From Begonia masoniana (Eukaryota > Streptophyta > Magnoliopsida > Cucurbitales > Begoniaceae), in the NCBI GenBank assembly GCA_022432975.1, contig CM039511.1, forward strand, positions 25,659,153 through 25,723,152: 64,000 nt of DNA, read 5' to 3'. The notes under the pieces are model-generated. The model saw only the letters and a list, made by a program, of their open reading frames with translations. It did no database searches and had not been told where the DNA came from. Numbering within the stretch: the stretch's first letter is position 1; each line of letters starts with the position of its first letter. Below, in pieces: positions 3,510-47,700 of this stretch. Position numbers and translations under genes: made by a program.

Positions 3510-3847
3510 TGTAATATCCGGCTCGTACGGATTTTGAAAATATTATTATTATATTATATATGACATTTTTGTAAATATGTCAAATCAGGTCCGTTTTACG
3601 AAGAGAAAGCGTCATGACGATCCTAACAATTAATAGGGATTTTAAAGAAATTTAGAGAATTTTCAGAATAATATCGATATATTCCGAGTAAATACGCTTT
3701 TCGTAATATAATTTTAGTAAAAATAGTAAACGAGGTCCGATTTGCGAACGGACAGTTTTAATAGAACCCAGATAATAAGTTGGATTTATTGGCGAAATAA
3801 GAAATTCGAAATGGTCGGAAAAACGATAAACGAGGATTAATTAATCG

Positions 3848-3851
3848 TTAG

Positions 3852-3900
<49 letters not shown>
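3848..3900. repeat. (TTA)n microsatellite in the A 5' LTR
   Basis: About 15 TTA/ATT units followed by AATAAATAAATAAA. The matching tract in the 3' LTR (11207-11250) is two units shorter. It lies immediately upstream of the GC-rich leader and may contribute a TATA-like promoter context. Confidence 0.9.
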
Positions 3901-4931
3901 AAATAAATAAAAACAAAAACAACACATTGTGTTGTTTCTTCACCGCGACCCGAGCACCCGCGACGAACGACGAACGCGAACGGCGAGCGGCATCCTTCCG
4001 ACGACGACGCGGCTCCGACGACGAGCAGACTCCGGCGAGCTGAAGCCAGAGTTCGGCTCGACATTTCCGCGCAAAAACCCGATCGAAAACCGGTGAGTTT
4101 ATTCCCTGTTCTTGCTCGATTTCTGGCCGGGATTGGCGAGCTCTGTTGAGCTCCGATCGCCGACCCTTTGTGGCTGTTCTCGGCGTAGTCTTGCCGAGGT
4201 TCAAGTCGGCAATGATTGCCGAGCGTTGGTGTGCCCAATTTGGGCCGAAAACAGGGAATCCCGAATTGGGGATTTCGGGTTTTCGGTGAATAACATCTAA
4301 ATTTGGTTAGTTTATGTTAATTAGGTATAAGAGGGATTGATTGGTGAGAAAATTAGTGTGAATTGATGAAAAATCGAAATGGGGGAATTTCCCGGGTTAG
4401 GGCAGTTCGGGTTTTGCTGCAATTGACCTATCTACGGTCGATTGTTTTAAAATTACTTTTGGCAGATTAAAATAGGTTGTTAGTGGAGCGCGTGGCCGCT
4501 GGAATCGTTCGATTCCGATAACCGACGCGAAAGTTACGCGCGTTCGAAGTTTCGGGTCGGTTTTTACCGAACCCAAATTAGGGTCCGAAATTGATAGGTG
4601 TTATCAGTAAGTAACGATATAAAGGACGTATTGAACGTTTATTGGACGAAGTTTGGATCATTCGTGAAAAAGTTGAAAATCCGAGAATTTAGGATTTCAG
4701 AAAGCTCGTAAATTGAGAATTGTAGGTGCCGGGCGTGAATTGTTCAAATAAATAGCTTCAGAAAATTGGATTAGAACTTTAAGGAATTTCTTTAGTTAAG
4801 GTTTTTGACAATTTGGAGACGTTATTAACGCAAACGCGATTTTAAAACGTCAATTCTTGTAAATTGCTTAGGTAAACATGCTCGTGGAACGAAGTCTTGG
4901 ATTGCAGCGTGGCACGAGGTAAGTTCTCGTT

Positions 4932-7042
4932 TGACCCTTCGGTATACAGTTTATAGCAAAGCAAAGCAAAGCAAAGCAAAGTAAAGCAATCGGTATACAG
5001 TTTATAGCAAAGCAAAGCAAAGCAAAGCAAAGTAAAGCAATCGGTATACAGTTTAAATGACCCTTCGGTATATAGTTTAAATGACCTTCGGTATACAGTT
5101 TAAATGACCTTCGGTATACAGTTTAAATGACCCTTCGGTATATAGTTTAAATGACCTTCGGTATACAGTTTAAATGACCCTTCGGTATATAGTTTAAATG
5201 ACCTTCGGTATACAGTTTAAATGACCTTCGGTATACAGTTTAAATGACCCTTCGGTATACAGTTTAAATGACCTTCGGTATACAGTTTAAATGACCCTTC
5301 GGTATATAGTTTAAATGACCTTCGGTATACAGTTTAAATGACCCTTCGGTATATAGTTTAAATGACCCTTCGGTATATAGTTTAAATGACCCTTCGGTAT
5401 ATAGTTTAAATGACCTTCGGTATACAGTTTATAGCAAAGCAAAGTAAAGCAATCGGTATACAGTTTAAATGACCCTTCGGTATATAGTTTAAATGACCCT
5501 TCGGTATACAGTTTAAATGACCTTCGGTATACAGTTTAAATGACCTTCGGTATACAGTTTAAATGACCTTCGGTATACAGTTTAAATGACCCTTCGGTAT
5601 ATAGTTTAAATGACCCTTCGGTATACAGTTTAAATGACCTTCGGTATACAGTTTAAATGACCTTCGGTATACAGTTTAAATGACCTTCGGTATACAGTTT
5701 AAATGACCTTCGGTATACAGTTTATAGCAAAGCAAAGTAAAGCAATCGGTATACAGTTTAAATGACCTTCGGTATACAGTTTAAATGACCTTCGGTATAC
5801 AGTTTAAATGACCTTCGGTATACAGTTTAAATGACCTTCGGTATACAGTTTAAATGACCCTTCGGTATATAGTTTAAATGACCTTCGGTATACAGTTTAA
5901 ATGACCTTCGGTATACAGTTTAAATGACCTTCGGTATACAGTTTAAATGACCTTCGGTATACAGTTTAAATGACCCTTCGGTATATAGTTTAAATGACCC
6001 TTCGGTATATAGTTTAAATGACCCTTCGGTATATAGTTTAAATGACCCTTCGGTATATAGTTTAAATGACCTTCGGTATACAGTTTAAATGACCTTCGGT
6101 ATACAGTTTAAATGACCCTTCGGTATACAGTTTAAATGACCTTCGGTATACAGTTTAAATGACCCTTCGGTATATAGTTTAAATGACCTTCGGTATACAG
6201 TTTAAATGACCTTCGGTATACAGTTTATAGCAAAGCAAAGTAAAGCAATCGGTATACAGTTTAAATGACCTTCGGTATACAGTTTAAATGACCTTCGGTA
6301 TACAGTTTAAATGACCCTTCGGTATATAGTTTAAATGACCCTTCGGTATACAGTTTAAATGACCCTTCGGTATATAGTTTAAATGACCCTTCGGTATATA
6401 GTTTAAATGACCCTTCGGTATATAGTTTAAATGACCCTTCGGTATATAGTTTAAATGACCCTTCGGTATATAGTTTAAATGACCTTCGGTATACAGTTTA
6501 AATGACCTTCGGTATACAGTTTAAATGACCTTCGGTATACAGTTTAAATGACCCTTCGGTATACAGTTTATAGCAAAGCAAAGTAAAGCAATCGGTATAC
6601 AGTTTAAATGACCCTTCGGTATACAGTTTAAATGACCTTCGGTATACAGTTTAAATGACCCTTCGGTATATAGTTTAAATGACCCTTCGGTATACAGTTT
6701 AAATGACCCTTCGGTATACAGTTTAAATGACCCTTCGGTATACAGTTTAAATGACCCTTCGGTATACAGTTTAAATGACCCTTCGGTATATAGTTTAAAT
6801 GACCCTTCGGTATACAGTTAAATGACCCTTCGGTATATAGTTTAAATGACCCTTCGGTATACAGTTTATAGCAAAGCAAAGCAAAGTAAAGCAATCGGTA
6901 TACAGTTTATAGTAAAGCAAAGTAAAGAAATCGGTATACAGTTTATAGCAAAGCAAAGTAAAGAAATCGGTATATAGTTTATAGCAAAGCAAAGTAAAGC
7001 AATCGGTATACAGTTTATAGCAAAGCAAAGCAAAGCAAAGTA
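4932..7042. repeat. Expanded 23/24-bp minisatellite in the A 5' LTR
   Basis: Tandem units built on ATGACCCTTCGGTATACAG plus TTTAA, as 24-bp (ACCCTT) and 23-bp (ACCTT) variants and TATAC/TATAT variants, roughly 80 copies by eye. Every few hundred bases a spacer of AGCAAAGCAAAGTAAAGCAA type replaces part of the unit, which suggests higher-order duplication. The array lies inside the candidate LTR intron, between the donor at about 4919 and the acceptor at about 7163. Confidence 0.95.
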
Positions 7043-7911
7043 ATAAATGAATCTGTATCTGTATTTAAATCTGAGCATGTTTTCTGAATGGCATACGCAC
7101 GCATGCATTTGCATTTACTAGAGCTTACTGAGATTTTTATCTCATAGATGTCTGTATGGTGTAGGTGTTTACGTGGAAACAGGTGAGGACGAGCTTCCTC
7201 CTCCTGAGGCATGAGGCAGTTGACGGAGGATGGGTTGCGGTGGTGTGTTGCGCAGTCGAGGTTCATCTGACCCGTGGGGACGTATGTATAGGTTTGAGGG
7301 TCTTCTTGGGGTATTTTGGGTTTATGAATTGTAAAGATATTTTAGGATGTTAGGTAATGACATTTGTTTTGAAATTCTGGAACTGTTTGGCTGTTTAAAT
7401 TAAATGTTATGAAAATGTTTTGAAATGTTTTTAGGTTGTTATGGATGGGCTGTTGGTAAACTGAATAGAACATATTAGGATGCTTGGTCTGGTAGATGAT
7501 AGGTTTATGTTTTGATGTTTTGAAACGTTTTAAAATGTATTCTGGAACTGCTTGGTATTTGTTTTGAAAACAGGAGGATTTGAATAGTTTTAAACGTAAC
7601 CACGCAGTTTGTTTTCGTGAAAACGTGTTTTATTTAACTATGTCCCGAGTCGTTTCGAGTGAGAGTATAGAGCGGTTATACGTTGAATTGTATTGTGAAA
7701 AGTATGATTGTTATGTAGGCAAAATTTGTATTATGAAATGGTATAGAAGGGCGTTAGGGTGTAAGATGTTGAAGTTATATTTAGGTGATAAAAGAAAGAA
7801 GAATTGTTTTAAACGTTTTATTAATTTGTTTTCCACTTAAATATTAAGTATAAAGGAAAAAGAAAAATTTCGTACGGGAAATTAGGAATAGTATAAGGGT
7901 CGTTACAGTTA

Positions 7912-7923
7912 TGGTATCAGAGC
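7912..7923 (+). other. Primer binding site of element A
   Basis: TGGTATCAGAGC starts four bases after the LTR end. It is complementary to the 3' end of initiator tRNA-Met, the usual primer of plant Ty3/gypsy chromoviruses. Confidence 0.92.
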
Positions 7924-8071
7924 CCCCGGGTTTTAAAATCGATTCTGTAGACTGCTCGACTGCACAGCCACTACGCGGACATCCTTCATCAACTGTAAGT
8001 CTGTTTACAGCTTTATTTGATTTTGTTTCTTAGAGATTATTTGTTTTAAATTTTATAGGAGTTTTATAGAT

Positions 8072-9208
8072 ATGGTTCGAGGAAGGGATCCTAGAGACGA
8101 CGCGATGGATCGACTTACGAAATTGTTGGACCGCCAGTCTCAGCATATGGACCGGCAAGCACAACAAATTACGGACTTGGTGAACCGAGAGAATCAGAGG
8201 GCCCAAGACTTGGTAGTTCCTGGTAATCAGGGTATGCAAAAGTTCCAAAGCCTGCGGCCTCCAGTATTCGACGGTCAATCGTCGGATCCGACACGTGCCG
8301 AGGAATGGATCCGGGTGATGGAAGATATGCTGAGTTATGCAGAGGTCGGCAACGGGAGCAAGGTGGCTTATGCTACCTTTCACTTGGCGATGGATGCCTG
8401 TTTCTGGTGGGACTCGATCAAGTCGACGACGGATGTATCAGTTATGACTTGGGATCGGTTCAAGTTTCTATTCTTCGATAAGTATTTCAGCCGCACAGTG
8501 AGAGTGGCCAAGAGGAATGAGTTCACGCAGCTGAAACAAACCGGTTCAGTTGCAGAGTATATCCGGAAGTTTGAGGCCTTGTCGCGATTTGCACCTCGCC
8601 TTGTCAGCGATAACGAGGAGAAGGTACACCAGTTTATGGAGGGCCTTAATTCAGAGATCCGGATGCACGTTGTTGTATCAGGTATTATCGATGTACCATA
8701 TTCTGACATCACAGCTAGGGCTTTGGATATTGAGGCCGCCAGAGCTACTTGTGTTAGACCGAGGGAGCCGGCTAAGGGCTTCTTTCGTGAGCTCCATCCT
8801 CAGACCCAGAATCAAGACTGGCAGCCGAGAGCACAGCAACAGCAACAACAACAAAGAGACGTTAAAAGGCCTCTAGAGGGAGGCAACGATCGAGGGAAAG
8901 GCAAGCAGGTACAAGGTGCTTCTCGGTTACCTCTTTGCCCTAAATGTCAGAGGGAGCACAGGGGACAGTGCAGAGTAGGCATGAATGTGTGCTATTGGTG
9001 TGGAGAACCAGGCCATTTTGTTAAAGACTGCCCGAATCGAGGTCGAGATCAATCAGGCAGAGATCAACATGGCATGGATCAAAGAAAAGTTGTACCGAGG
9101 GTCTTTGCATTCATCGAGCCTGACAACGCCGACGATGGGGCCCAGCCTTCTACAATTGCAGGTATTATTTTTTTATTACCTGTACATCGGTATGCATATG
9201 ATAGATAA
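8072..9208 (+). CDS. gag: Gag protein of element A (chromovirus type, intact)
   Basis: The 378-residue frame starts MVRGRDPRDD. The N-terminal 50 residues are rich in Arg/Gln and look coiled-coil-like (DRQSQHMDRQAQQI). The retrotransposon gag core lies at about residues 60-210 (PPVFDGQSSDP, AEEWI, FWWDSIK, FDKYFS, QLKQTGSVAEYIRKFEALSRFAP). A basic Gln-rich linker follows (residues 245-275). A CCHC zinc knuckle CYWCGEPGHFVKDC is intact, preceded by CPKCQREHRGQC. The protein forms the particle and packages RNA. It ends with about 15 residues unrelated to F just where protease would begin. The start is chosen because it matches the gag starts of G and F and lies about 160 bases after the primer site. 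The frame has no stop or shift, unlike the other elements here. Confidence 0.9.
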   Translation: MVRGRDPRDDAMDRLTKLLDRQSQHMDRQAQQITDLVNRENQRAQDLVVPGNQGMQKFQSLRPPVFDGQSSDPTRAEEWIRVMEDMLSYAEVGNGSKVAYATFHLAMDACFWWDSIKSTTDVSVMTWDRFKFLFFDKYFSRTVRVAKRNEFTQLKQTGSVAEYIRKFEALSRFAPRLVSDNEEKVHQFMEGLNSEIRMHVVVSGIIDVPYSDITARALDIEAARATCVRPREPAKGFFRELHPQTQNQDWQPRAQQQQQQQRDVKRPLEGGNDRGKGKQVQGASRLPLCPKCQREHRGQCRVGMNVCYWCGEPGHFVKDCPNRGRDQSGRDQHGMDQRKVVPRVFAFIEPDNADDGAQPSTIAGIIFLLPVHRYAYDR

Positions 9209-10866: not shown

Positions 10867-11206
10867 TGTAATATCCGGCTCGTACGGATTTTGAAAATAT
10901 TATTATTATATTATATATGACATTTTTGTAAATATGTCAAATCAGGTCCGTTTTACGAAGAGAAAGCGTCATGACGATCCTAACAATTAATAGGGATTTT
11001 AAAGAAATTTAGAGAATTTTCAGAATAATATCGATATATTCCGAGTAAATACGCTTTTCGTAATATAATTTTAGTAAAAATAGTAAACGAGGTCTGATTT
11101 GCGAACGGACAGTTTTAATAGAACCCAGATAATAAGTTGGATTTATTGGCGAAATAAGAAATTCGAAATGGTCGGAAAAACGATAAACGAGGATTAATTA
11201 ATCGTT

Positions 11207-11208
11207 AG

Positions 11209-11250
<42 letters not shown>
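11207..11250. repeat. (TTA)n microsatellite in the A 3' LTR
   Basis: Shorter partner of the tract at 3848-3900, in the same position upstream of the leader exon. Confidence 0.9.
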
Positions 11251-11251
<1 letters not shown>

Positions 11252-12218
11252 AAATAAATAAAAACAAAAACAACACATTGTGTTGTTTCTTCACCGCGAC
11301 CCGAGCACCCGCGACGAACGACGAACGCGAACGGCGAGCGGCATCCTTCCGACGACGACGCGGCTCCGACGACGAGCAGACTCCGGCGAGCTGAAGCCAG
11401 AGTTCGGCTCGACATTTCCGCGCAAAAACCCGATCGAAAACCGGTGAGTTTATTCCCTGTTCTTGCTCGATTTCTGGCCGGGATTGGCGAGCTCTGTTGA
11501 GCTCCGATCGCCGACCCTTTGTGGCTGTTCTCGGCGTAGTCTTGCCGAGGTTCAAGTCGGCAATGATTGCCGAGCGTTGGTGTGCCCAATTTGGGCCGAA
11601 AACAGGGAATCCCGAATTGGGGATTTCGGGTTTTCGGTGAATAACATCTAAATTTTGGTTAGTTTATGTTAATTAGGTATAAGAGGGATTGATTGGTGAG
11701 AAAATTAGTGTGAATTGATGAAAAATCGAAATGGGGGAATTTCCCGGGTTAGGGCAGTTCGGGTTTTGCTGCAATTGACCTATCTACGGTCGATTGTTTT
11801 AAAATTACTTTTGGCAGATTAAAATAGGTTGTTAGTGGAGCGCGTGGCCGCTGGAATCGTTCGATTCCGATAACCGACGCGAAAGTTACGCGCGTTCGAA
11901 GTTTCGGGTCGGTTTTTACCGAACCCAAATTAGGGTCCGAAATTGATAGGTTTATAGTAATTAACGATATAAAGGACGTATTGAACGTTATTGGACGAAG
12001 TTTGATCAATTCGTGAAAAAAGTTTAAAATCCGAGAATTTTAGGATTTTCAGAAAAGCTCGTAAATTGAGAATTTAGGTGCCGGGCGTGAATTGTTCAAA
12101 TAAATAGCTCGATAAATTGGATTAGAACTTTAAGGAATTTCTTTAGTTAAGGTTTTTGACAATTTGGACGTTTATTAACTCAAACGCGTTTTAACGTCAA
12201 TTCTTGTAAATTGCTTAG

Positions 12219-12263
12219 GTAAACAGTGCTCGTGGACGAAGCTTGGATTGCAGCGTGCACGAG
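12219..12263 (+). other. Candidate 45-nt microexon in the A 3' LTR
   Basis: The cassette is preceded by TTGCTTAG and followed by GTAAGTTCTC, so both edges are canonical splice sites. Read with two bases carried into the first codon, it gives KQCSWTKLGLQRAR plus one base, which joins in phase to the segment at 13050-13099. The same 45-nt length and phase occur in E, F, G and J. In the A 5' LTR the equivalent segment (4872-4918) is 47 nt because of indels. Confidence 0.55.
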
Positions 12264-12518
12264 GTAAGTTCTCGTGACTTGTTTGACCGAAAGGTCTACA
12301 CCATACCTCGTCGTCGTATCAAGGATCCTTGAGGGTTCCTTGTTTTATGTTGTTTAGGTTGGGTAGTTATGTTAGCTGTTTATAGGTTTTGTTGTATTGT
12401 CTTGTTGATATGTATGTTGTTTGTTTACTTTCCGTTGATTAACTGTTCATGCATCACGTGTTTTAAATGTCATGAAAACGAATTTCCGCATGACGTTTTA
12501 AAGTAAATGCAAAGAAAG

Positions 12519-12929
12519 AATGACCCTTCGGTATACAGTTTAAATGACCCTTCGGTATACAGTTTAAATGACCCTTCGGTATATAGTTTAAATGACCCTT
12601 CGGTATACAGTTTAAATGACCCTTCGGTATACAGTTTAAATGACCCTTCGGTATACAGTTTAAATGACCCTTCGGTATACAGTTTAAATGACCCTTCGGT
12701 ATACAGTTTAAATGACCCTTCGGTATATAGTTTAAATGGCCCATCGGTATACAGTTTATAGCAAAGCAAAGTAAAGCAATCGGTATACAGTTTATAGCAA
12801 AGCAAAGTAAAGCAATTGGTATACAGTTTATAGCAAAGCAAAGTAAAGAAATCGGTATATAGTTTATAGCAAAGCAAAGTAAAGCAATCGGTATACAGTT
12901 TATAGCAAAGCAAAGCAAAGCAAAGTAAT
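12519..12929. repeat. Short minisatellite array in the A 3' LTR
   Basis: Same unit as the 5' LTR array, about ten copies, all of the 24-bp form, then five AGCAAAGCAAAG spacers. Because 24 is a multiple of three, both strands show long open frames with an 8-residue repeat. These frames are a consequence of unit length and are not called as genes. Confidence 0.95.
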
Positions 12930-13049
12930 AAATGAATCTGTATCTGTATTTAAATCTGAGCATGTTTTCTGAATGGCATACGCACGCATGCATTTGCATT
13001 TACTAGAGCTTACTGAGATTTTTATCTCATAGATGTCTGTATGGTGTAG

Positions 13050-13099
13050 GTGTTTACGTGGAAACAGGTGAGGACGAGCTTCCTCCTCCTGAGGCATGA
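13050..13099 (+). other. Candidate terminal coding exon in the A 3' LTR (GEDELPPPEA-stop)
   Basis: It follows ATGGTGTAG and reads GVYVETGEDELPPPEA then TGA when joined to the 45-nt cassette. Copies in E, F, G and K give the same GEDE/GEDD and PPPEA core, with changes mostly at third codon positions, and the stop is conserved (TGA or TAA). The 5' LTR copy is 7165-7214. No ATG is present upstream in phase, so translation is uncertain. Confidence 0.5.
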
Positions 13100-13863
13100 G
13101 GCAGTTGACGGAGGATGGGTTGCGGTGGTGTGTTGCGCAGTCGAGGTTCATCTGACCCGTGGGGACGTATGTATAGGTTTTGAGGGTCTTCTTGGGGTAT
13201 TTTGGGTTTATGAATTGTAAAGATATTTTAGGATGTTAGGTAATGACATTTGTTTTGAAATTCTGGAACTGTTTGGCTGTTTAAATTAAATGTTATGAAA
13301 ATGTTTTGAAATGTTTTTAGGTTGTTATGGATGGGCTGTTGGTAAACTGAATAGAACATATTAGGATGCTTGGTCTGGTAGATGATAGGTTTATGTTTTG
13401 ATGTTTTGAAACGTTTTAAAATGTATTCTGGAACTGCTTGGTATTTGTTTTGAAAACAGGAGGATTTGAATAGTTTTAAACGTAACCACGCAGTTTGTTT
13501 TCGTGAAAACGTGTTTTATTTAACTATGTCCCGAGTCGTTTCGAGTGAGAGTATAGAGCGGTTATACGTTGAATTGTATTGTGAAAAGTATGATTGTTAT
13601 GTAGGCAAAATTTGTATTATGAAATGGTATAGAAGGGCGTTAGGGTGTAAGATGTTGAAGTTATATTTAGGTGATAAAAGAAAGAAGAATTGTTTTAAAC
13701 GTTTTATTAATTTGTTTTCCACTTAAATATTAAGTATAAAGGAAAAAGAAAAATTTCGTACGGGAAATTAGGAATAGTATAAGGGTCGTTACAGCACACC
13801 CACGGGTCGGTAAGCCATGCCAAAAAACACATCTTGTCTCCACGAGCACCATCCGTCGACCAC

Positions 13864-13910
13864 CTACGCTTTATCATCAAGAGGAGGTTCCTCACCTTCG
13901 ATCTCATCAC
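13864..13910 (-). other. Candidate terminal coding exon in LTR J
   Basis: On the reverse strand it follows ATGATATAG and reads GDEIEGEEPPLDDKA then TAG, 47 nt. It is the most diverged member of the set but keeps length, phase, an acidic core and the final stop. Confidence 0.4.
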
Positions 13911-14451: not shown

Positions 14452-14496
14452 CTAGCGTCCTTAGAGAGCCAAGCACCGTCTTTAAGCTTGGGTTAC
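14452..14496 (-). other. Candidate 45-nt microexon in LTR J
   Basis: Exactly 45 nt between an upstream ATCTTAG and a downstream GTAAGTGAGT on the reverse strand. The in-phase reading has no stop (NPSLKTVLGSLRTL plus split codons). An upstream donor CCTAG/GTAAGT lies at 14854-14855. Confidence 0.5.
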
Positions 14497-15892: not shown

Positions 15893-18698
15893 TGTAATAC
15901 CTAAAACATTTTCTCAACATGAGTTGCCCTTAGATTAGAGTATGTTATGGAAGTCTAATAAAGATCCTAGGGTTATGCTAATTTTAGGAGGTAGAAGGTG
16001 AAGTTTGGAGAGGAAGTCATAGAATTGGAAATGGTGAGAGTTATAGTTGGTTGAGTTAATTAAAGTAAAGGAAATTTGTAAAAGAAAGAGGAGAAAAGTG
16101 TGATGCCTCACGTTGGAAGTAAAGAAGAGGAAGCTTTAAGGGTTGGAAAAGTCAAGAAGTTAGAAGAAATAAAGTAAAATATGGAAAGCAAAAGAAGTGT
16201 AAGAAAGTGTTGAAAAGTCAACAAACATATAGTTTGAATATTCAATAGTACGAGTAGGAAAATTTAAACCCTTCACGTGGAGGAAGTGAAAAACATGTGT
16301 TGGTGTGTAAGAGGGGTAAATTAGGAAAGTAAGAAAGAGTTTTAAAATAAAGACAACTCATGTAAGCCACTCCCACGTTGACACCTACACAATTTTGTAG
16401 GTTGTTTGATGTTATCTTTTTCAATGACTTAAAGAGTACATATTCTTTATTACAAGAAATCAAAAACAACGCCATTCTTTTCTTCTCCTCCTTAATCGAA
16501 AACTTCAACTGCCAAGGAGCTTCTCTTCCAAGAAAAACTAGTGGTAAGTTAAAGTTTAGTTATATTATGTATAAGGAGGTTAAGTATGGAGAAAGTAGTG
16601 GAGTATTTATGGGTTTTGTTAAGATTTGTTGAACACTAATTTTGATGAACAAAAATAGTTAGATTTTCTCTATTTCTTAGTTGTATTGGTGTTCTTATAA
16701 GATATAATGGATGCTAAGGAATGAAATGAGGGGAAAAACATTGGATTTGCATGAATACTAAAGATTTGAAGGAAATAGAGCAATATGGGGATTCTGTAAT
16801 TTCGGTCCAAGTAATTTAGTTTTACTTAATTATTGGTTTGAGCATGCTAAAATAGACTCTTCAAGGAGTCCATAGCCGTTGGAATTATCAAATTCGAATA
16901 TGTATAGTAGAAGATATGAATTTTTAAAGTTTAGCTATTTTGTTAAGATTTCAAAAAATTTTATAGATGATAGTTAAATTTGATGTTGGATGATGAAAAG
17001 TGTAGAAAAATTGGATTTTAGGGTTTTAAACTTTAAAGGGGTTTAAATTGTTGTTAGTTTTGGTTTAGGTAATTCCTTAGAATTTCTTAGAATGTTACTA
17101 AGTGAATTTCCCTATATGTGCTTGCTGAACGAGCAAGTAATTAGTGTACTCGGAGTAAACCAATACGTGCAGAGAAATCAGGTAAGTAGAGGAACATGTG
17201 TTTTGTTACCTTCAGGCCTACACCATGGAACAATATAGATGTTTGTTTGTTTGGTTGTTTGTTTTGGTTTGAGCATTGTATTGTCATGTATTGCATAATG
17301 TTTTCAAACTACGAAATATGAGTATGAAACATAAGAAGATAAAAAGACAATCGCCTCATCAGGAATTAGTGCTCGTGTGTAGCACCCTTAAAAGATTTCT
17401 ACGAGAGATGCTATGCTAAAAATACGTATTGTGTCCTGAATATGAATGCCTCGATATGTTCATGCTAAAAGACATACTGAGGGTTCTATGATCGATGTGG
17501 GAGGAGATCAGGTATGGCCGTCCAGGATTGTGTTGGGATGTGTGCCTCTGATCTTGCTTTGTGGATCAAGGTATTGTCGTCCAGGATTGTGTTAGGACGT
17601 GTGCCTAGTTGATTCGCGTGTAAAAGTGAAAGAGTAATGCAAAGAAAATGAAACGAAAACAACTGAGTGAGTAGAAATCGCATTTAGGGGTTGAGTTGAG
17701 CATGCATTGTTTTGAATTGCATTATTCCCTACTTGCTAAGCATTAGGCTTACATTTTGTGTTCTATGGTGTAGGTGACGACGTGATTGCAGGTAAGCTAG
17801 ATAAGAGAGGCCAGGACTAGGGAGCAGTCGGCGGCGCACTGGGCATGCCGGTGTAGGTATTTATCGGGGTGTCTCGACCATGGGCTTATGGGAGCTTTGG
17901 TATTGGATATTTTGTTGGGATTTGGTTTGTGTAAATAATGGGGAGTTTATAACTCTTTTGGTTGGTTGGAGTTTGTTGTATAAATTTTATTTCCAGGGTT
18001 TTGGTTTTCAAAACATTAAAGGTTATGATGCTCAACTTTTATTAGCAAAACATTTTGTTTTTATGAATTTTCACGTTTTCGCTGACGTTTTATAGTCAGG
18101 TTTTGGGGATTTTCACGTGTCGGGATGTATAAAATGTCGGGAAGAGGTTTGGGTAGGTTTTAGGTGAATTGGAGGTGTAAAAGATGAGGAAAATAAAGGA
18201 AAGTGGAATAGGGTTGATTTGGTGTGCTGTTGGCCGAGATGAGGCGCGCAGGCCAGAACAGGCGCGCTCTGGCACTGGGCTGGGCGCACGCAACACTCAG
18301 CACCGATCGATCGGCAATTGTTACTATTGCCCGATTGGCAACCCAAGAGGTTGCCGATCGATCAGCACATTTTGCCGATCGATCGGCATCTCCTGCACGC
18401 AAGGTGCGCACGCTGCGTGCTATTGTGCGCACGCTGCACGCCGCGGGTGTGCACGCACGGTGCCCATTCGTGCCAACTTGGGGTTTTTAAAATTTTCTTA
18501 TTTCAAATATGTTTTGACCCGACCTTTTCCGACACATTTTGCATGTATTTTACACACGTTTTTCAACCATTTTTTAGGGTTAGAAAAATACAAAAATCGA
18601 GTCAAAATTTTATCAAAAATTATTTTAAACTTTGTTTTAAACGTGAGAAGGTTGAGCAAAGTAGCGCACCGAGCCGGGGTGGGTTTGGGGGCATTACA
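15893..18698 (+). mobile_element. Solo LTR of family B, copy 1
   Basis: 2,806 bp from TGTAATACC to GGGCATTACA, with no internal domain. The flanks are CAAGA on the left and CAAGT on the right. The uninterrupted sequence in related LTRs (TGCTTAGCAAGTAGGGAAT) shows that CAAGT was the target, so the left copy has one substitution. It shares its layout with copy 2 at 44743-47746. It carries a donor TCAG/GTAAGT at 17182, CCTACACCAT at about 17217-17226, ATGGTGTAGG at about 17766-17775 and a short in-phase end GDDVIAGKLDKRGQD-stop. A 45-nt cassette like that of the other families is not clear. Confidence 0.88.
17500..17612. repeat. Direct repeat in solo LTR B copy 1
   Basis: Two imperfect copies of a roughly 55-base unit containing GTCCAGGATTGTGTTGGGA. 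It is in the variable interval between CCTACACCAT and ATGGTGTAGG. The copy-2 LTR has a different, diverged version near 46950-47090. Confidence 0.75.
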
Positions 18699-20213
18699 CA
18701 AGTAGGGAATAATAAATTTAAAAACAATGCATACTCAACCCCTAACACATAGAGTTTTTACACGCTCTGTTGTTCTCATTTTGTTTTTGTTTCATTAATC
18801 TTTCACTTAACCGTGTGGATCAAGTAGGCACCCATCCTATAACCATCTAGGACGGCAACACCTTGACCAGCAGAGCAAGATCGGAGGCACACATCCGGAT
18901 TTCGCCCATTGGACGGCCATACACGATCTCCTCCCACATCGATCGTAGAACCCTCTAGTGCTTTCTCTTGCACGTTAGCGACGAGGCATTCATACTCACG
19001 ACATCTTACGTATTTTCAGCGGTGCATCTCTGGTAGAGACCCTCTCGAGGTGCTACACCCCAGCACTAAGTAACGACCCAATCCCTACGTTGGGCCCGAT
19101 TGTGCGGTGTCCCACACCGCCACGTGACTACGATCCACAAGATATGTTGGGCCCGATTGCACCACATGTACATCTCTCAATGAGGCAGCTCTACTCGAGA
19201 CCACGTTGCAAATCTTCTTATCTTTTTACGTTTCGTGCTCACATTTGAAAACATGATAAAACCTCATTTTTCGTAGCTCAAAAACCATGATGCATGCCCA
19301 CACAAATGCTCAACCACAACACAACACAACACAGCTCAACAAATAAACAATAAAACAACCCTACCGTTCAATGGTGTAGGCCTAAAGGCAAAAGACAAAC
19401 ATCCTCTAGTTACCTGGATCTCCGTAACGTACTTACTCTCATTGGCATTGTCAATTGCTCATTCGTTAACCTAGCAAATTCATGAAATTTACTTAGAAAC
19501 CATAAAAGAAATTTAAGGGATACATACTCAAATCCTAGCAACAAACTAATCCAATTTTAAAGCATTACACCAAAATCCCGAAATCCACCCCCCCCCCCCC
19601 CCCCCCCCTTTCTTCACTGTCCAAACTTCAATCGGTCATAACTTACTCGTTTTTCATCAGATTTGAACGATCCTACCCATTCCGTAAACCTCTACATGAC
19701 TACCATCCAATGCCATAATTTATTTTACTAACCAAACAACATGACCGATCAGGTTCCACAAAAACAGAACCAGCGACACTTTGTTCCAAAACTGATTTTC
19801 AGACAAAATCAACCAAATCTCTAATCTATCTATACTATTAACCTAAACCACCCTATCTAAGGTCTAAACCACCAAATATCAAGAAAAACTCATCAAGGAA
19901 AGGGGATTTTCGGAATACCCCATTAGGGTTTCCCAAACTCCACCAAAACCCACCTAAAAACACAGTACAATTGTATAAAATCACCAAGGTATGCATAAAT
20001 CACCAAAACCCATCAAAACTAACCTTAATCTTTGATGAAATTTTAAGAAAGGAGGAAGGGGAAGCTATCCCATGGCTGTCACAAAGGGGGAGGAAGGAGA
20101 AGACAGTGAAACTTGTCTTTTACTCCTTCACCTTCTACTTTTTTAAACTCCAATTTTTCCTTTCTAAAATTTTACCACCAAACAAATGTTATTTATAAAA
20201 CCAACCGTATCTG
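18699..20213 (-). mobile_element. Reverse-strand B LTR, second fragment
   Basis: It resumes the reverse-strand B LTR after the solo LTR (GTAGGGAATAAT and the AACAAAATGAAA blocks match the reverse complement of 17640-17720). It contains a run of 21 C at 19588-19608. Its 5' end was not found: similarity fades near 20110 and the palindromic element begins at 20214. Confidence 0.7.
19588..19608. repeat. Poly-C run (21 bases)
   Basis: Uninterrupted C run in the reverse-strand B LTR. Similar runs: 16 G at 29835-29850 in F and 18 C at 63121-63138. Confidence 0.9.
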
Positions 20214-21063: not shown

Positions 21064-21203
21064 CATTCAGTTAAACCGTTCAAAAGATTACTCATCAGTG
21101 CCAATCGTTGCATGGGAGTACTCCAACAACTGTAAGTGTTTATGTTAGCTTTAGCTATAAGATGTTTATAAGAGTAGTTAACCCTGTGCAGGAATTTAGT
21201 ATT

Positions 21204-24073: not shown

Positions 24074-24086
24074 TTTTATAAAATAA
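24074..24086 (+). promoter_or_regulatory. TATA-like box of LTR E
   Basis: TTTTATAAAATAA followed about 20-30 bases later by pyrimidine-rich sequence (CTCTTTCTCCCTCACTTTC), typical of a plant transcription start region. The comparable site in G is TTATAAAAC on the reverse strand at about 41691-41700. Confidence 0.5.
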
Positions 24087-24620: not shown

Positions 24621-24665
24621 GTGCACCTCGCTCGTGGACGGAGCAAGCATTTCAACAGACGTCAG
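24621..24665 (+). other. Candidate 45-nt microexon in LTR E
   Basis: Bounded by TTGCCTTAG and GTAAGTCTCC. In phase it reads APRSWTEQAFQQTS plus split codons, sharing RSWTE with F and SWT with A. Confidence 0.6.
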
Positions 24666-25211: not shown

Positions 25212-25258
25212 GTGACCTCTACACTGGTGAGGATGAGATCCCTCCACCCGAGGCATGA
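25212..25258 (+). other. Candidate terminal coding exon in LTR E (GEDEIPPPEA-stop)
   Basis: Follows ATGGTGTAG; reads GDLYTGEDEIPPPEA then TGA, 47 nt, in phase with the 45-nt cassette. A branch-point-like TTACTGAG lies about 35 bases upstream of the acceptor. Confidence 0.55.
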
Positions 25259-29642: not shown

Positions 29643-29877
29643 CTACACCATACAGACACACTATGAGATAAAAATCTCAGCAAGTTTCGTAAATGCAATG
29701 CATGCTGTGCGTATGAGTTTCAGAAATCATGCACCATTTTCTTATCATTACGTCGCAGACAGAATGTCACCGAGGTCTCAGCCTATTAGATGGAGAGGAC
29801 ACATCCTGCGGTCGGACTTCCCTCTTCACCTAACGGGGGGGGGGGGGGGGTTAGGGTTACACGCTCGCACCCATAAC

Positions 29878-30253
29878 TGTGATGACCCGGATGTCTAAGT
29901 ATGGTACGATGGCTGCACGAACCAGAACCCGGATGGCGGTACGTCCGCGCGGGCGAACCGAAAGGTAACGGTCGTAAACAAGGGGGTCGTCACAATCCCA
30001 CATCGCTTGGGGAAGTATGTGGAAATGAAACATATGTAAAGAGACCCTCCCAACATAGCAAGATGCGTTTTGGAGCACGATTGGCGACGGATCCCATAAG
30101 AACTCCGAAGTTAAAAGTGCTTCGGCGAGAGCAATTCCAGGTTGGGTGACCTTCCGGGAAGTTCTCGCCAAACAAAGCCGTGAGGGGAGGATATTGTGCT
30201 ACGGCCCAATCCCCAGAGCGGACAATATCTTGCTGGGAAACGGGGTCGTTACA
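29878..30253 (+). repeat. Cassandra LTR 1
   Basis: 376 bp. 5S-like segment at 30061-30170. Differs from the other copies in the GGTAACGGTCGTAAACAAGG stretch. Confidence 0.93.
30061..30170 (+). promoter_or_regulatory. 5S rRNA-derived segment with internal polymerase III promoter
   Basis: The segment follows plant 5S rRNA from its GATGCG start through GGATCCCAT-AGAACTCCG, a box A-like GAAGTTAAAAGTGCTTC and a box C-like CAGGTTGGGTGACC to GGGAAGTTCTCG. It has diverged from functional 5S rRNA (for example the A-rich AAAAG in box A), so it is an LTR promoter relic and not a 5S gene. Matching segments are at 30508-30617, 30955-31064 and 31402-31511. Confidence 0.88.
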
Positions 30254-30255
30254 AA

Positions 30256-30267
30256 TGGTATCAGAGC
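30256..30267 (+). other. Cassandra primer binding site, first internal domain
   Basis: TGGTATCAGAGC, initiator tRNA-Met type. The second internal domain has a mutated form (TGATATCAGAGC at 30703-30714); the third (31150-31161) is intact. Confidence 0.92.
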
Positions 30268-30324
30268 CTGTACCCAACCGGAAATGTGGCCAACGAGGAC
30301 GTTGGGCCCCCGAGGGGGGGTGAT

Positions 30325-30700
30325 TGTGATGACCCGGATGTCTAAGTATGGTACGATGGCTGCACGAACCAGAACCCGGATGGCGGTACGTCCGCGCGGG
30401 CGAACCGAAAGGTAACGGGTCGTAAAAAGGGGGTCGTCACAATCCCACATCGCTTGGGGAAGTATGTGGAAATGAAACATATGTAAAGAGACCCTCCCAA
30501 CATAGCAAGATGCGTTTTGGAGCACGATTGGCGACGGATCCCATAAGAACTCCGAAGTTAAAAGTGCTTCGGCGAGAGCAATTCCAGGTTGGGTGACCTT
30601 CCGGGAAGTTCTCGCCAAACAAAGCCGTGAGGGGAGGATATTGTGCTACGGCCCAATCCCCAGAGCGGACAATATCTTGCTGGGAAACGGGGTCGTTACA
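30325..30700 (+). repeat. Cassandra LTR 2
   Basis: 376 bp; 5S-like segment at 30508-30617. Confidence 0.93.
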
Positions 30701-30771
30701 AATGATATCAGAGCCTATACCCAACCGGAAATGTGGCCAACGAGGACGTTGGGCCCCCGAGGGGGGGTGAT

Positions 30772-31147
30772 TGTGATGACCCGGATGTCTAAGTATGGTA
30801 CGATGGCTGCACGAACCGGAACCCGGATGGCGGTACGTCCGCGCGGGCGAACCGGAAGGTAACGGGTCGTAAAAAGGGGGTCGTCACAATCCCACATCGC
30901 TTGGGGAAGTATGTGGAAATGAAACATATGTAAAGAGACCCTCCCAACATAGCAAGACGCGTTTTGGAGCACGATTGGCGACGGATCCCATAAGAACTCC
31001 GAAGTTAAAAGTGATTCGGCGAGAGCAATTCCAGGTTGGGTGACCTTCCGGGAAGTTCTCGCCAAACAAAGCCGTGAGGGGAGGATATTGTGCTACGGCC
31101 CAATCCCCAGAGCGGACAATATCTTGCTGGGAAACGGGGTCGTTACA
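30772..31147 (+). repeat. Cassandra LTR 3
   Basis: 376 bp; the 5S-like box A region carries GTGATTCGG where the others have GTGCTTCGG. Confidence 0.93.
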
Positions 31148-31218
31148 AATGGTATCAGAGCCTGTACCCAACCGGAAATGTGGCCAACGAGGACGTTGGG
31201 CCCCCGAGGGGGGGTGAT

Positions 31219-31594
31219 TGTGATGAGCCGGATGTCTAAGTATGGTACGATGGCTGCACGAACCGGAACCCGGATGGCGGTACGTCCGCGCGGGCGAACC
31301 GGAAGGTAACGGGTCGTAAAAAGGGGGTCGTCACAATCCCACATCGCTTGGGGAAGTATGTGGAAATGAAACATATGTAAAGAGACCCTCCCAACATAGC
31401 AAGACGCGTTTTGGAGCACGATTGGCGACGGATCCCATAAGAACTCCGAAGTTAAAAGTGCTTCGGCGAGAGCAATTCCAGGTTGGGTGACCTTCCGGGA
31501 AGTTCTCGCCAAACAAAGCCGTGAGGGGAGGGTATTGTGCTACGGCCCATTCCCCAGAGCGGACAATATCTTGCTGGGAAACGGGGTCGTTACA
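31219..31594 (+). repeat. Cassandra LTR 4
   Basis: 376 bp; starts TGTGATGAGCC (one change) and is followed by the right ATAAC duplication. Confidence 0.93.
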
Positions 31595-31940
31595 ATAACA
31601 GCCGTGCCTGAGCCCCACCTCGCGTAACCAGATACAGATTACATTGATTCATTACGTTTATTCATTTCATTTTCATAAACACGTGAAGAAATCCGTTTTC
31701 GTGCTATTTTAAAAATACGTGATGCATGAACAGTTATAGACATAAAATAAACAAACATCATACATACCATCAAGACTATAAAAATCATAACCTATAAAAG
31801 ACTATAAAAAGCATAACCTATAAAAGAACTAACCCTATCTACCCGACCAAAGCATATAAACAAACAACTCTTCAGAGATCCTCGACGCGACATCGACATA
31901 CGGTGTAGGCCACTCGACCAAGTAAGTCACGAGAACTTAC

Positions 31941-31985
31941 CTCGTCTGCGCTGAACTTCAAGTTCCGTCCACGAGCGTTGTTCGT
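31941..31985 (-). other. Candidate 45-nt microexon in the F 3' LTR
   Basis: Reverse strand; bounded by TTTGTCTCAG and GTAAGTTCTC. In phase it reads EQRSWTELEVQRRR plus split codons. The Cassandra array lies in the intron downstream of it. The copy in the other F LTR is 39112-39156 (donor GTAAAT). Confidence 0.6.
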
Positions 31986-37581: not shown

Positions 37582-40091
37582 TGTGACGACCCTAACACTG
37601 TACCCATTTTTCTCGTAATATATTTTTTTTTATAACCTAAGTAATCCTATAACGTAAAGGCGGAAACTTAAAAAGTTAATAGAATTAAAAACCAATGTAG
37701 CAGAATTTAAAACGGAAACCAAAATTTGTAAAACATTCGAATCTATTTTTTTTTTTAAAACCACGAATAAAGTTTTAAAAAAATTAAAAGAAAACATTAA
37801 AACATTAATTAAAAACAATTAAAAACAGAGGGGAAGCATTCGGTAGAGAACAGGGGCAGAAACGGGCAATCGCCCTAAAAATAAATGGGCGATCGCTGGT
37901 TTTGCCAGCGATCGCCTGGGTGAAGCGACCACAGATCGCGGCGACAACACGAGGTGCGATCGATCACCCGAAATGGGTGATCGATCGCCACTCGCTCTAG
38001 AAATCTATTTCCAGAGCGCTCGGCGATTCGCCCAGCGATCGCCTGGCTTCCTCCCTCTTCTTTCCTCTTTCTTTTCCTTCTACTACCTTCTCTTCTTTCT
38101 CTTCCTGCATATCAATACACTTCACAATTCCTTTAACCAAATTTTACCTACACCTCAACCATACCTTACAATATAAATTCACTCAAAATTTTATGCAAAC
38201 AACGACTCAAGGCACATTTAAAAACATAACCTATTTTTCTAAAAACAAACCGCGTGGATATGTTTAAAAACCGAATATTTTCCTAATACCAAACATTTAC
38301 AAAATACATTTCCAAAACATTTTAAAAACAAACTCAAAACATAACCTATCCACTATTCAGAACCAAACACCCTAAAATGTCTCTAACTATACAGGTTTCT
38401 ATCAAAAATAGCCCAAAATACCTACATACGTCCCCACGGGTCATGAACGCCTCGACTGCGCCAGCACACTCCCGCAATCATTTTTCGTCAACTGAACTCA
38501 GGCTTCTGGAGGAGGAACATCGTCCTCACCTGTCTCGTAATCACCTACACCATACAGACACACTATGAGATAAAAATCTCAGCAAGTTTCGTAAATGCAA
38601 TGCATGCTGTGCGTATGAGTTTCAGAAATCATGCAACATTTTCTTATCATTACATCGCAGACAGAATGTCACCGAGGTCTCAGCGTATTAGATGGAGAGG
38701 ACACATCCCGTGGTCGGACTGCCCTCTTCACCTAACCAGGGGGGGAGGGTTACACGCTCGCACCCATAACAGCCATGCCTGAGCCCCACCTCGCGTAACC
38801 AGATACAGATTACATTGATTCATTACGTTTATTCATTTCATTTTCATAAACACGTGCAGAAATCCGTTTTCGTGCTATTTTAAAAATACGTGATGTATGA
38901 ACAGTTATAGACATAAAATAAACAAACATCATACATACAATCAAGACTAGAAAAAGCATAACCTATAAAAGACTATAAAAAGCATAATCTATAAAAGATA
39001 TAACCCTATCTACCCGACCAAAGCATATAAACAAACAACTCTTCAGAGATCCTCGACACGACATTGACATACGGTGTAGGCCACTCGGCCAAGTAAGTCA
39101 CGAGAATTTACCTCGTGCGCACTGAACTTCAAGCTCTGTCCACGAGCGTTGTTCGTCTGAGACAAAACACAACAATTTTTGTTAAACGAGCTTTAAACCG
39201 TTATACGTCCAAATTTAACGAAACCTTAATTAAGGAAATTTTCCTAAAGTTCTAACTCAACTCTTCGAGACATTTTATCGAGCAATTCGTGCTCGTGAAT
39301 TTCCAAAACTCCATTAATGGAAATTCTCAAACCTAAAAATCCGATTTTTCAACCTAAACACCGAATACACTCTAGATTTCGTCCAATAACGTTTAATACG
39401 TTAAATATACTCACTAATACGTCAAACCTATCAATTTCAAACTTTAAACTACGTTTTTCACAAAACCTAAACGAAACCCTAACCGCTAAACTCCGTGAAA
39501 ACCAAACTATAACACTCCAAAAGCATAGAATCATACCTAGGGTTGCGAGAGGAGGAGAAAACGTGAAGAACGGAGGACGAACGGACGAGGAACGAACGTC
39601 GGAAATGGGGAATCGCCGTGAAGCTTCATCGGAGGAAGGAAATCGCAGGGGAGAGGAGAAAAAATGGCGTGGAGAAGAAGAAAGACGTGTTTTAATTGAA
39701 ATTTTTTACTTTGCAAATTACCATTTTGCCCTTCCTTTGATTTTCTATTTGTTTCGTCCTTCGTTTCTTTAATTAACAAATGATTCGGTTTCTCCAAATT
39801 TTCTTACTTCGCCGATAACTTCAACTTACTACCAGGGTTTTATTAAAACTGTCCGTTTGCAATTCGGACCTCGTTTACTATTTTTACCAAAGTATCCTTT
39901 ATATTACGATAAACGCAATTCTTGTAAAATTAGCGTTAAACCCCTAAAAATCCCGAAATTTTCTTAAAATCTTTATTAATTATTAAGATCGTAATAACGC
40001 TTTCTTTTTACAAAATGGACTTGATTTGACATAATTACAAAAATATCATTATATTATTGATTTATAAAATCCCATAAATCTGGGTGTTATA
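37582..40091 (-). repeat. Element F 5' LTR (2,510 bp)
   Basis: Partner of 28626-32922, without Cassandra. At 38765-38769 it preserves the empty ATAAC site (CACCCATAACAGCC) that the Cassandra array occupies in the other LTR. Terminal exon 38498-38544, 45-nt cassette 39112-39156, leader donor near 39536, GATCGATCG cluster 37868-38045. Confidence 0.93.
39112..39156 (-). other. Candidate 45-nt microexon in the F 5' LTR
   Basis: Same length and position as 31941-31985; the donor is GTAAAT instead of GTAAGT, and five or so bases differ, leaving the frame open. Confidence 0.55.
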
Positions 40092-41255: not shown

Positions 41256-41300
41256 CTCGCATCCTTAACACGCAGAGCTTCTCGTTTTGAGCTAGTCCAC
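41256..41300 (-). other. Candidate 45-nt microexon in the G 3' LTR
   Basis: Reverse strand; preceded by TGTTCTAG, followed by ATAAGT, so the donor GT has become AT. Length and open phase are kept (GLAQNEKLCVLRMR). In the G 5' LTR most of this cassette is deleted but a GAG/GTAAGT donor remains near 49240. Confidence 0.5.
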
Positions 41301-44398: not shown

Positions 44399-44742
44399 TC
44401 ACTGTAACGAACCTTAATTAAACCCTTGTACTATTCCAAAAAAAAATCCCATGAAATTTAAACTTTTATTCGTATTTTGATCATACATGCATAAGGGTGC
44501 TCAACCCCGTTCAGCAGAAGACTATTCATGTGTGAAAATTTTCTCTCGGTTCTATCACTTAATTTCTCTCGAAATAAATAATCACTTAGTTCTTCTCAGG
44601 TTTCATCAATTTAAGCAGTGGAGGAGGATGTTTCTCTCTATCGGGTTTGGATGACGGTAACAGAAGGAAATACCTCACGGGTTTCATCAATTTAAACAGT
44701 GGAGGAGGATATTTCTCTCTATCAGGTTTGGACGACAAAAAC

Positions 44743-47700
44743 TGTAGCACCCGAGAAATTATCGTACGCTTTAATTCTTAGTATTTAATAAGTTAGGTTA
44801 TTTCAAACGTATTTAGTAATAAATAGTAAAGATAAAAATATTTTACAAGTTAATTTATTTAAAGGAATTTAAAATGGATAGTTAAGGCTTTGGGGTGTGT
44901 TGGAAGAAATTGAGGGAAAAAGAATGAAGTGCAAGTGATTGAAAATTATGAGTGTGATTAGTTAAAATTTTATAGAATTGATAAGTCAATAAGTCAATAA
45001 AAAAGAGATTAAGGGATGGAGTGTTTGGCATTGAAAAAGTTAACAAAGAAAAAAATTAGATATTGAAAAGTCAATTAACATATAGTTGACTAGTCAATGG
45101 TACAAGTGGAAAAATTTTTAACCCTTCATGTGGAGAAAGTGAAAAACATGTGCTGGTGTGCTGAGAGGGGTAAAATAGGAAAGTAAGGGAGAGTTTTAAA
45201 AAGACAACTCATCTAAGCCACTCCCACATTGACTGCAATTTGGTAGGTTGTTTGATGTTATCTTTTGCAATGACTTAAAGAGAACATATTCTTCATTACA
45301 AGAAATAAAAAAAGGACGCCATTCTTTTCTTCTCCTCCTGAATCGAAAACTTCAACTTGCAGAGGAGCTTTTTCTTCTAAGAAAAACTAGTGGTAAGTTA
45401 AGGTTTAGTTATATTATGCATAAGGAGATTAAATATGGAGAAAGTAGTGGACTATTTATGGGTTTTGTTAAGATTTGTTTAACCCTAATTTTGATGCATG
45501 GAAATGGTTAGATTTCTTTATTTCTTAGTTTTATTGATGTTCTTATAAGATATAATGGATATTAAGGAATGAAATGAAGGAAACATATTGGATTTGCATG
45601 AATACTCAAGATTTGAAGAAAATAGAGCAATATGGGGATTCTATAATTTCGGTCCAAATAGTTTAGTTTTACTTAATTATTGGTTCAAGCATGTTATAGT
45701 GGACTCTTTAAGGAGTCCATAGCCTTTACAATTATTGAATTCGGACTTATATTTAATTTGTTACGAATTTTTGAACTACGTCGATGTTTGATATAAAACT
45801 GTAAATTAGGGAAATTGATAAAACAGGGCAGGTCTGGGGTTTTATTTATTTTGACCAAGTTATTTATATTAAAGTGATAACTGGATTTCAACATTTGAAA
45901 ATATACATCCTAAGGTTTACACAGAATTTTGAATCGACGAATTCGGATATGTATACGATTTATGGTGAATTTTTGAAGTAGTTAAAGTTTAATGAAATCT
46001 GGAATTTAAGAAATAACAGGGCAGGTTCGGTTTTGCACAGTTTTGGCTAAGCTAATGATATTGGTTTTTTGAATGGTTTTAGTCATTAAAAACTAGACTT
46101 CTCAAGTTTTAAAGAACATCTTGAATCATCAAATTTGGATATATATACGATTTGTTATGAATTTTTAAATCTATTGTACAAAAACTGGAAACTTTTTGGA
46201 GCAGTTTCAGTTTTTGGTAATTCTGATCTCGTGGAGGATTTTGATTGATAAATTGACCTTGTAATGTTAATGTAGACTCATTAAGGAGTCCATAGGCATT
46301 GGAATAAACGTATTTGGATAAGTATAGATTAAATTATGAGTTTTCAAAATTGGTATAATGTATTGTGATATAATCTGAATTTTATTAGTAAAGGAAAATC
46401 ACTTGGATTTGGATCCTTAACTTGAGTTATGTATGATGTCATGTCTTGGAAATATTTGGATGGATAGATTACTTAAATTGGATTAGTTGGATATCGATTG
46501 GTTGTGATTGGAATAGATAGTTGTGTAAATGATTATGATGGACTTTGACATTGGTTTTCTTTAAATATTATGAAAATGTGGGAAAATTGGGTTTTAGGGT
46601 GTTAGGTTTCAAAAGTTGTTTATTTTGTTGTTAAATTTAGTTTAGACATTCATTAGAGTTCCTATGTTGTTACTAAGTGATTTTCCTATATGTGTTAGGT
46701 TGAGTTGAGCATTTGGAGTAACTGAAAAGAGTAAGCACGTACAGAGTATTCAGGTAAGTAGTGGTTGTTTACGTTTTGCCTTTAGGCCTACACCATGGAA
46801 CGGTAGGGATTATTTGATTATTTGCGAGTTTGTGTTTTGTTTTGTGTCGAGCATATGTGTGGCATGCATCATTATTTCCCAACTACGAAACACTCGTTTT
46901 GAGCATGGTTTTGAACGGTGAGTATGAAATGTGTGGGGATTGGGTAGTGTCATCCTTGGAGCTAGACTCAGATGTATGCTAGGAAATCGGGTACGGCCAT
47001 CTTTGGAGCTGGACTCGGTTGTGGCCCTCCGATATCGCGCTGTTGGTTCAAAGTAGGGCCATTCTAGATGATCTAGGATGTGTGCCTACTTGATCAACAC
47101 TGTTAGAGGATAGATTAACATTTTGAAAAACAAAATGAAAGCAACAGAGCGAGTAGAAACTGTATGTGTTAGGATGTATGAGCATTGTATGTGTTTGCAT
47201 CCATTATTCCCTACTTGCTAAGCATTAGGCTTACGTTTTGTGTTCTGTGGTGTAGGTGACGACGTGATAGCAGGTGAGAGTGCCTAGGACTAGGGAGCAG
47301 TCGGCGACGCACAAGGCATGCCGCTGCAGGTATTTGTCGGGGCGTCTCGACCATGGTCTTCGGGAGAGGTGTGGGATGTGTATTTTGATAGTTCGGGTTG
47401 GATTTTGTTTGTGTAAATAACAGAAAATTTTACTATTCTGGTTGGTGTTTTGGAAAATGTTGTATAGATATTTGCTTTACTGTTTTGGGGTTTATAAAAT
47501 TATTTTTTCGTAGAATAAACCATGTTAGTTTTCAACTGTTTTCGCGTTTTTGTTGACAATTTAGAGTCGGTTTTTCTAGGATTTTTACATGTCGGGAAGT
47601 CAAGAGTGTCGGGAAGGTTTTGGGTAAGTTTTAGGTGTTTTGGGTTTGTGTGGTTTGAAGAAAAAAAATCATTTTAAATTACGTTTTAAACGTGGGAAGT

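Follow-up and report, generated by a model that had tools for sequence, protein, structure and literature searches.

Nested LTR Elements in the Window

The window, a 64-kb stretch of contig CM039511.1 from Begonia masoniana that was analyzed as sequence of this one plant, consists mostly of nested Ty3/gypsy LTR elements. Element A, on the plus strand, is an LTR retrotransposon with two LTRs (~3510-7907 and 10867-13793), a primer binding site after the 5′ LTR (TGGTATCAGAGC, 7912..7923), a gag gene (8072..9208) with a zinc knuckle and matches to Ty3_capsid and Retrotrans_gag, and a target-site duplication, GCACA, seen by eye on either side. Its two LTRs are 97.5-98.8% alike across their two long aligned parts. 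E is a solo LTR on the same strand (23697-26125, with CATTC on either side), F and G are minus-strand elements with two LTR copies apiece, and J and H are partial; the 5′ LTR copies of A, F and G are denoted A5, F5 and G5, and the 3′ copies A3, F3 and G3. Three further LTR groups, K1, K2 and K3, were detected via a conserved block downstream of a donor. The C-terminal part of element F contains a Tf2-1-type SH3 domain, and only this element gave a Chromo match (E 0.0012), which at 19.2 bits lies below the cut-off of 25.1, while comparison of the integrase tail with the PDB by sequence returned a single weak match to Ty3 (E 0.051). From their overall features we take the elements to be of the Tekay/Del type, and their primer site is presumably of the Met-tRNA type. 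Relatives sought by gag in viral_contigs were not confirmed, motif patterns matched 0, 1 and 0 stretches in the same collection, and a motif pattern matched 11 records in genome_contigs, which are bacterial by title.

Several of the elements are inserted into one another: A lies in J (3505-3509 and 13794-13798), K1 in the 5′ LTR of G (44741-47741), and K2 apparently within K3 (15.9-18.7 kb). An array of 447-nt units repeated in tandem, in which a primer site and four stretches resembling 5S rRNA were recognized (29878-31595), presumably a Cassandra-type TRIM array, sits in the LTR of F3 with ATAAC on either side, and a relative that is ~84% alike is found at 60068-60450. At the Rfam gathering thresholds five 5S rRNA matches were obtained, and otherwise no known RNA family.

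A Short Cassette Shared by the LTR Groups

In the LTRs a short cassette lies between an AG and a GTAAG-like donor, and the sequence-only reading had placed this cassette, with a length of exactly 45 nt, in five LTR families. All of these copies were located as claimed, namely in A3 (12219..12263, plus strand; GC 25/45, T 9/45), E (24621..24665, plus), F5 (39112..39156, minus; donor GTAAAT), F3 (31941..31985, minus), G3 (41256..41300, minus; donor ATAAG) and J (14452..14496, minus). The fixed length, however, holds for six of the ten measurable copies. The copy in A5 has several indels and measures 47 nt (4872..4918, plus), and the homologous cassettes of the K groups, which had been missed before and share the donor and the downstream block with the other groups, measure 55 nt in K1 (46699..46753, plus; donor 46754), ~54 nt by alignment in K2 (donor 17182), where the acceptor AG is lost, and 57 nt in K3 (19414..19470, minus; donor 19413). 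In G5 the cassette was lost by a deletion, and in H only its last bases are left; both retain the cassette donor and the block downstream of it (49239 and 53525, minus strand). A5 also carries a large array of ~23-24-nt tandem repeats (4932-6909), which replaces the 5′ arm of the stem P2 described below and whose counterpart in the 3′ LTR is much shorter. Profile searches with the donor block and with the acceptor block gave 12 strong matches each (E 1.2e-5 or better), and beyond those 12 only weak matches (E 0.15-9). The composition of the cassette stands out more clearly than that of the other predicted exons: in eight copies, 0.9-2.7% of the windows between the leader donor and the second acceptor, both introduced below, are at least as GC-rich and as T-poor.

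Predicted Splice Sites and Introns

In the following, D1 denotes the leader donor, D2 the cassette donor and D3 a donor within the last segment, A2 is the cassette acceptor, and the second acceptor is the 3′ splice site of the predicted intron 2. The upstream donors D1 are present where they had been claimed, at 11444 (A), 24239 (E), 32365 (F), 41547 (G) and 14855 (J). Since the sites were chosen by eye as donor-like, the fairer control is the count of strong donors on the antisense strand: with a donor matrix that is approximate, nine LTR copies contain 28 donors of at least 8 bits in sense but 2 in antisense, and 23 of the 28 are D1, D2 or D3. D2 is the top-scoring donor in seven of the nine copies (third in F5, mutated in G3), D3, with the pattern G/GTRAG, is among the top three in eight of nine and sixth in E, and D1 ranks 2-8 in the eight copies scored. 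On the acceptor side, of the AGs located 20-150 nt before D2, A2 scores highest in A3, E and F3 and second highest in G3, J and K1. Against splicing stand the mutated sites, that is the donor of G3 and the first acceptor of K2, and the second acceptor, which has a moderate score (in ten copies it takes ranks 1-19 relative to other AGs) and whose AG falls within the stem P2.

The layout can be followed in A3 on the plus strand. A leader exon 1, taken as 150 nt (11294..11443), is ATG-free with 66% GC and 9% T, and a TATA-like ATAAATAA is found 190-194 nt upstream of D1. Downstream follow a predicted intron 1 of 775 nt (11444..12218, GTGAGT...TTGCTTAG), the cassette as predicted exon 2, and a predicted intron 2 of 786 nt (12264..13049, GTAAGT...TATGGTGTAG). 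The spacing of 540-790 nt reported for the latter stands for A3, E (546 nt), F5 (567 nt), G3 (552 nt) and J (541 nt), but not for F3, where intron 2 spans 2298 nt (29643..31940, minus strand) owing to the inserted 5S-bearing element, and where P2 is still predicted. In J the downstream sequence is ATGATATAG, where ATGGTGTAG had been described. Most copies contain the set of signals that characterizes spliceosomal introns (donor, branch-like site, acceptor, U-rich body and GC-richer exons), the exceptions being the moderate acceptors and the leader exons of K1 and K2, which are not GC-rich.

The last segment had been taken as 47-50 nt long, but this length is that of a stretch ending at a stop codon, and a strong donor already follows after 15 or 18 nt, so that the segment is probably a microexon. 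In A3 the predicted exon 3 has 18 nt (13050..13067, plus) and is followed by a GTGAGG donor, D3; 18 nt are also predicted in A5 (7165..7182, plus), K1 (47256..47273, plus) and K2 (17774..17791, plus; donor GTAAGC), and 15 nt in E (25212..25226, plus), F5 (38530..38544, minus) and J (13896..13910, minus). At 13052-13099 and the homologous places, five copies could be read as ETGEDE(I/V/L)PPPEA-stop or nearly so, without a start codon. A protein-coding exon was considered and rejected as the main explanation: no in-frame start was found, and in A5 and K1 the length of the cassette cannot be divided by three.

The composition of the predicted exons and introns was compared in a pool of seven copies (A3, E, F5, G3, J, K1 and K2). 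Leader exon, cassette and 15/18-nt segment have 48-51% GC and 20-29% T, with 4.8, 3.0 and 8.8 ATGs per kb, respectively, as against 32 and 39% GC, 38 and 34% T, and 22.8 and 39.2 ATGs per kb in introns 1 and 2. The spread within the pool speaks against splicing, as the leader exons of K1 and K2 have 33% GC and two ATGs each, and that of F5 has 37% T; furthermore, exon 1 contains 5 ATGs where base shuffles give an expectation of 10.6. If left unspliced, the leader contains 106 ATGs in A5 and 46 in F5, counted from 150 nt ahead of D1 as far as gag; exons 1-3 combined contain 0-2 across the seven copies, and the primer-site segment, if retained in the messenger, would contribute one.

A Predicted Stem Spanning Intron 2 and a Predicted Hairpin at the Branch-Like Motif

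Intron 2 contains the block CCTACACCATA 32-36 nt from its start and the reverse complement of this block, TATGGTGTAGG, at its 3′ end; the two can form a stem, P2. In A3 the 5′ arm lies at 12295..12306 and the 3′ arm at 13039..13050 (plus strand), covering the 3′ splice site, and the core pair probability is 0.89. Over nine groups, 96 of 99 cells pair at positions 1-11; all 16 positions counted pair in K1 and K2, and 14 in K3. When ten introns were folded as single sequences (A5 and K3 left out), the core was predicted with a probability of ~0.8-1 in eight, including the 2.3-kb intron of F3, but P2 was not predicted in G3 or J. When the two end blocks were aligned across nine groups, their consensus fold reached -19.0 kcal/mol, compared with a mean of -0.84 +/- 1.18 and a minimum of -7.74 after shuffling of the columns, with 0 of 300 shuffles as low. 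Among 11 copies, the non-Watson-Crick combinations at positions 1-11 are 9 G-U, 3 A-C and 1 T-T in the sense RNA, some of them shared by related copies.

The covariation of P2 is modest. In J, T-A replaces C-G, a two-sided change, alongside one mismatch, and at position 12 of the K groups G-C is exchanged for C-G. Few pairs are lost when arms are exchanged between groups (eight cuts, P 0.02-0.35), with P 0.02 for positions 1-13 and 0.04, 0.09 and 0.21 for other cuts with nine groups, and 0.10-0.35 with six groups. This weak significance arises because the core hardly varies, so that the support for P2 rests on its invariant complementarity together with the two changes in J and at position 12 of K.

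About 20 nt before the second acceptor a further hairpin, P3, is predicted (13014..13029 in A3, plus strand), with a branch-like motif at its 3′ arm. Here 95.6% of the cells pair, a value reached by 3 of 500 shuffles, and one pair swaps G-C for A-U in four of nine distinct rows. The covariation score itself was reached by 44 of 500 shuffles, and at least one pair with a two-sided change arises in 326 of 500, the latter speaking against the leader-intron reading given below. The 3′ arm reads CTCAT, CTCAC or CTTAC in all 11 aligned rows, each fitting the branch-site pattern YTNAY. Another candidate, a hairpin with D2 in its loop, forms stems of 5-6 bp in several copies but was discarded, as it did not stand out from shuffled sequences (P 0.13-0.98 over 11 copies).

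A Predicted Mini-Intron Before gag

Between the primer site and the gag ATG at 8072, element A contains a predicted mini-intron of 64 nt (7995..8058, plus strand, 55% T). Corresponding segments running from GTAAGT to TTATAG measure 64, 64 and 66 nt in A, F and G, have 55-58% T and end 12-13 nt upstream of the gag ATG in all three. The sites score unevenly: the donor has a T before the GT and lies outside the eight best donors in A5, F5 and G5, which argues against splicing here, and the acceptor, second-ranked in A5 and fifth in F5, lies outside the best twelve in G5, where TTTCTTAG inside the mini-intron ranks 2. A comparable intron-like segment of 60 nt, GTAAGT...TGTGCAG with 38% T (21132-21191), is found between primer site and gag ATG in a fourth element, whose gag is more distant and of a second type.

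Interpretation and Alternative Explanations

The strength of the donors, the pooled composition, the lower number of ATGs in the exons, the YTNAY motif and the conservation over nine groups make it probable that transcripts of the LTRs undergo splicing at these sites, as the sequence-only reading had proposed. Conserved sites, composition and pairing can be read directly from the DNA; from them we infer that splicing takes place, what D3 is joined to and what the stem does. We consider it fairly probable that the LTRs of these Ty3/gypsy elements carry a leader-intron module that separates a Gag messenger from the genomic RNA. Transcription would begin inside the LTR with an ATG-poor leader exon, which would be joined to the exon of 45-57 nt, then to the 15/18-nt microexon and onward to gag, and the further mini-intron of 64-66 nt would be removed directly before the gag ATG. 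By stripping dozens of upstream ATGs, splicing would yield a translatable Gag messenger. In the unspliced RNA, the LTR leader would be complete and the primer binding site retained, and translation would be poor; as the only form able to regenerate intact LTRs, this RNA would serve as the genome. The gag-proximal acceptor is a candidate partner of D3, and if the two were joined, the messenger would lack the primer site.

The balance between spliced and unspliced RNA would probably be set by P2 together with the P3 hairpin at the branch-like motif. Since P2 covers the acceptor AG, it is expected to restrain splicing; alternatively, it might bring the two exons together. More tentatively, and with greater doubt than belief, P2 could be an RNA switch shared by many families of this retrotransposon clade: in its closed state the acceptor and branch site would be hidden and the RNA would become a genome, while in its open state the two tiny exons would be spliced in and the primer site probably skipped, giving a Gag messenger that cannot be copied.

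The same blocks could instead represent RNA structure of the unspliced genome, such as a packaging or dimer signal, the splice-like motifs being incidental. Retroviral packaging signals are located just downstream of a donor, and the 5′ arm of P2 likewise lies just 3′ of one; the strong, conserved pairing of P2 and P3 would also be in line with such a role. However, D1, D3, the mini-intron before gag, the contrast in composition and the scarcity of strong antisense donors would then be left unexplained, and we regard this explanation as rather unlikely. It also appears unlikely that the motifs are boxes of a promoter or enhancer acting as DNA, with CCTACACC in inverted copies as a factor-binding site. 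LTRs do carry promoters, and a search for the 13-mer CACCTACACCATA allowing at most 2 mismatches gives 19 occurrences against 1.09 expected, mostly in these LTR copies, but neither the strand bias of donor strength nor the predominance of G-U in the sense RNA among the departures from P2 pairing fits a signal in DNA.

Two explanations assign the blocks to genes. The start of a host gene, with promoter and first exons, might have been captured once by an ancestral LTR and passively inherited; the gene-like order, with a TATA-like box and a pyrimidine-rich leader in E, F and G and three donors, is what such an origin would leave behind, yet the donors and stem arms were retained while the flanking LTR sequence diverged, so that we give this origin little credence. 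A small protein encoded across the leader, the 45-nt exon and a last exon, as an earlier coding interpretation of the locus implied, is scarcely credible. Inspection by eye indeed shows no stop in the joined frame across exons 2-3 of five families, and in the last segment the variable columns of five copies number 2, 2 and 8 at codon positions 1, 2 and 3, with the stop kept as TGA, TAA or, in J, TAG. A coding phase is nevertheless not supported: none of the eight leader copies translated has an in-frame ATG after the last leader stop, element A has a stop in this frame 16 codons before D1, the cassette measures 47, 55 or 57 nt in other copies, exon 2 has no codon-like pattern by eye, the excess at third positions is confined to the last segment, and that segment is broken by a strong donor.

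Comparison With Known Systems

In HTLV/BLV and foamy viruses the R region of the LTR contains a splice donor, and the unspliced RNA serves as genome; these are animal viruses with one donor, and they are not known to have small internal LTR exons. How one transcript is divided between translation and replication is an open question for most plant LTR elements, to which a conserved exon/intron module, located within the LTRs of an abundant group, would offer a concrete and testable answer. Such a module might also account for the great length of these LTRs and, if real, solo LTRs would spread ready-made first exons and donors across plant genomes.

A 2025 review describes plant LTR elements as generally intronless, with Ogre and EVD as notable exceptions (PMC12786077). 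Both have functional introns and partly spliced RNA, as is proposed here, but their introns are described as lying between or within coding regions, unlike those in the LTR (PMC6317226; PMC12786077). The Copia element BARE1 is reported to maintain separate RNA pools for translation and packaging, and its intron, like the predicted ones, is U-rich between GC-richer flanks; at 104 nt it belongs to the end of gag rather than to the LTR leader, and Bagy2, Ogre and CRR, named as spliced in the excerpted account, are not described there as spliced in the LTR (PMC3735527). Spliced isoforms are made by sunflower elements, although the expressed set as excerpted includes no Tekay member, which speaks against the leader-intron reading (PMC7730604). 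Tekay/Del chromoviruses share with the elements of the window a Ty3-type gag and an integrase tail, here with a weak chromodomain match, and leader introns are not mentioned in the excerpted description of them (PMC6317226).

The arrangement had been thought to be without any known description. This stands for the conserved multi-exon architecture, since the accessible literature, searched in part with narrow queries, returned no description of a conserved multi-exon LTR module with an intron-spanning stem, but not for LTR splicing as such. For a CRM4-derived tandem repeat in maize, three full-length cDNAs have their 5′ ends 18-43 nt downstream of a TATA box, their UTR is mostly spliced out, and one has an extra splice in the LTR (PMC3648361). 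The excerpted account describes no conserved small exons or long-range stem, and the repeat belongs to the CRM clade and is a tandem repeat rather than a set of intact elements; nevertheless, these cDNAs are a precedent for splicing within the LTR of a plant chromovirus (PMC3648361).
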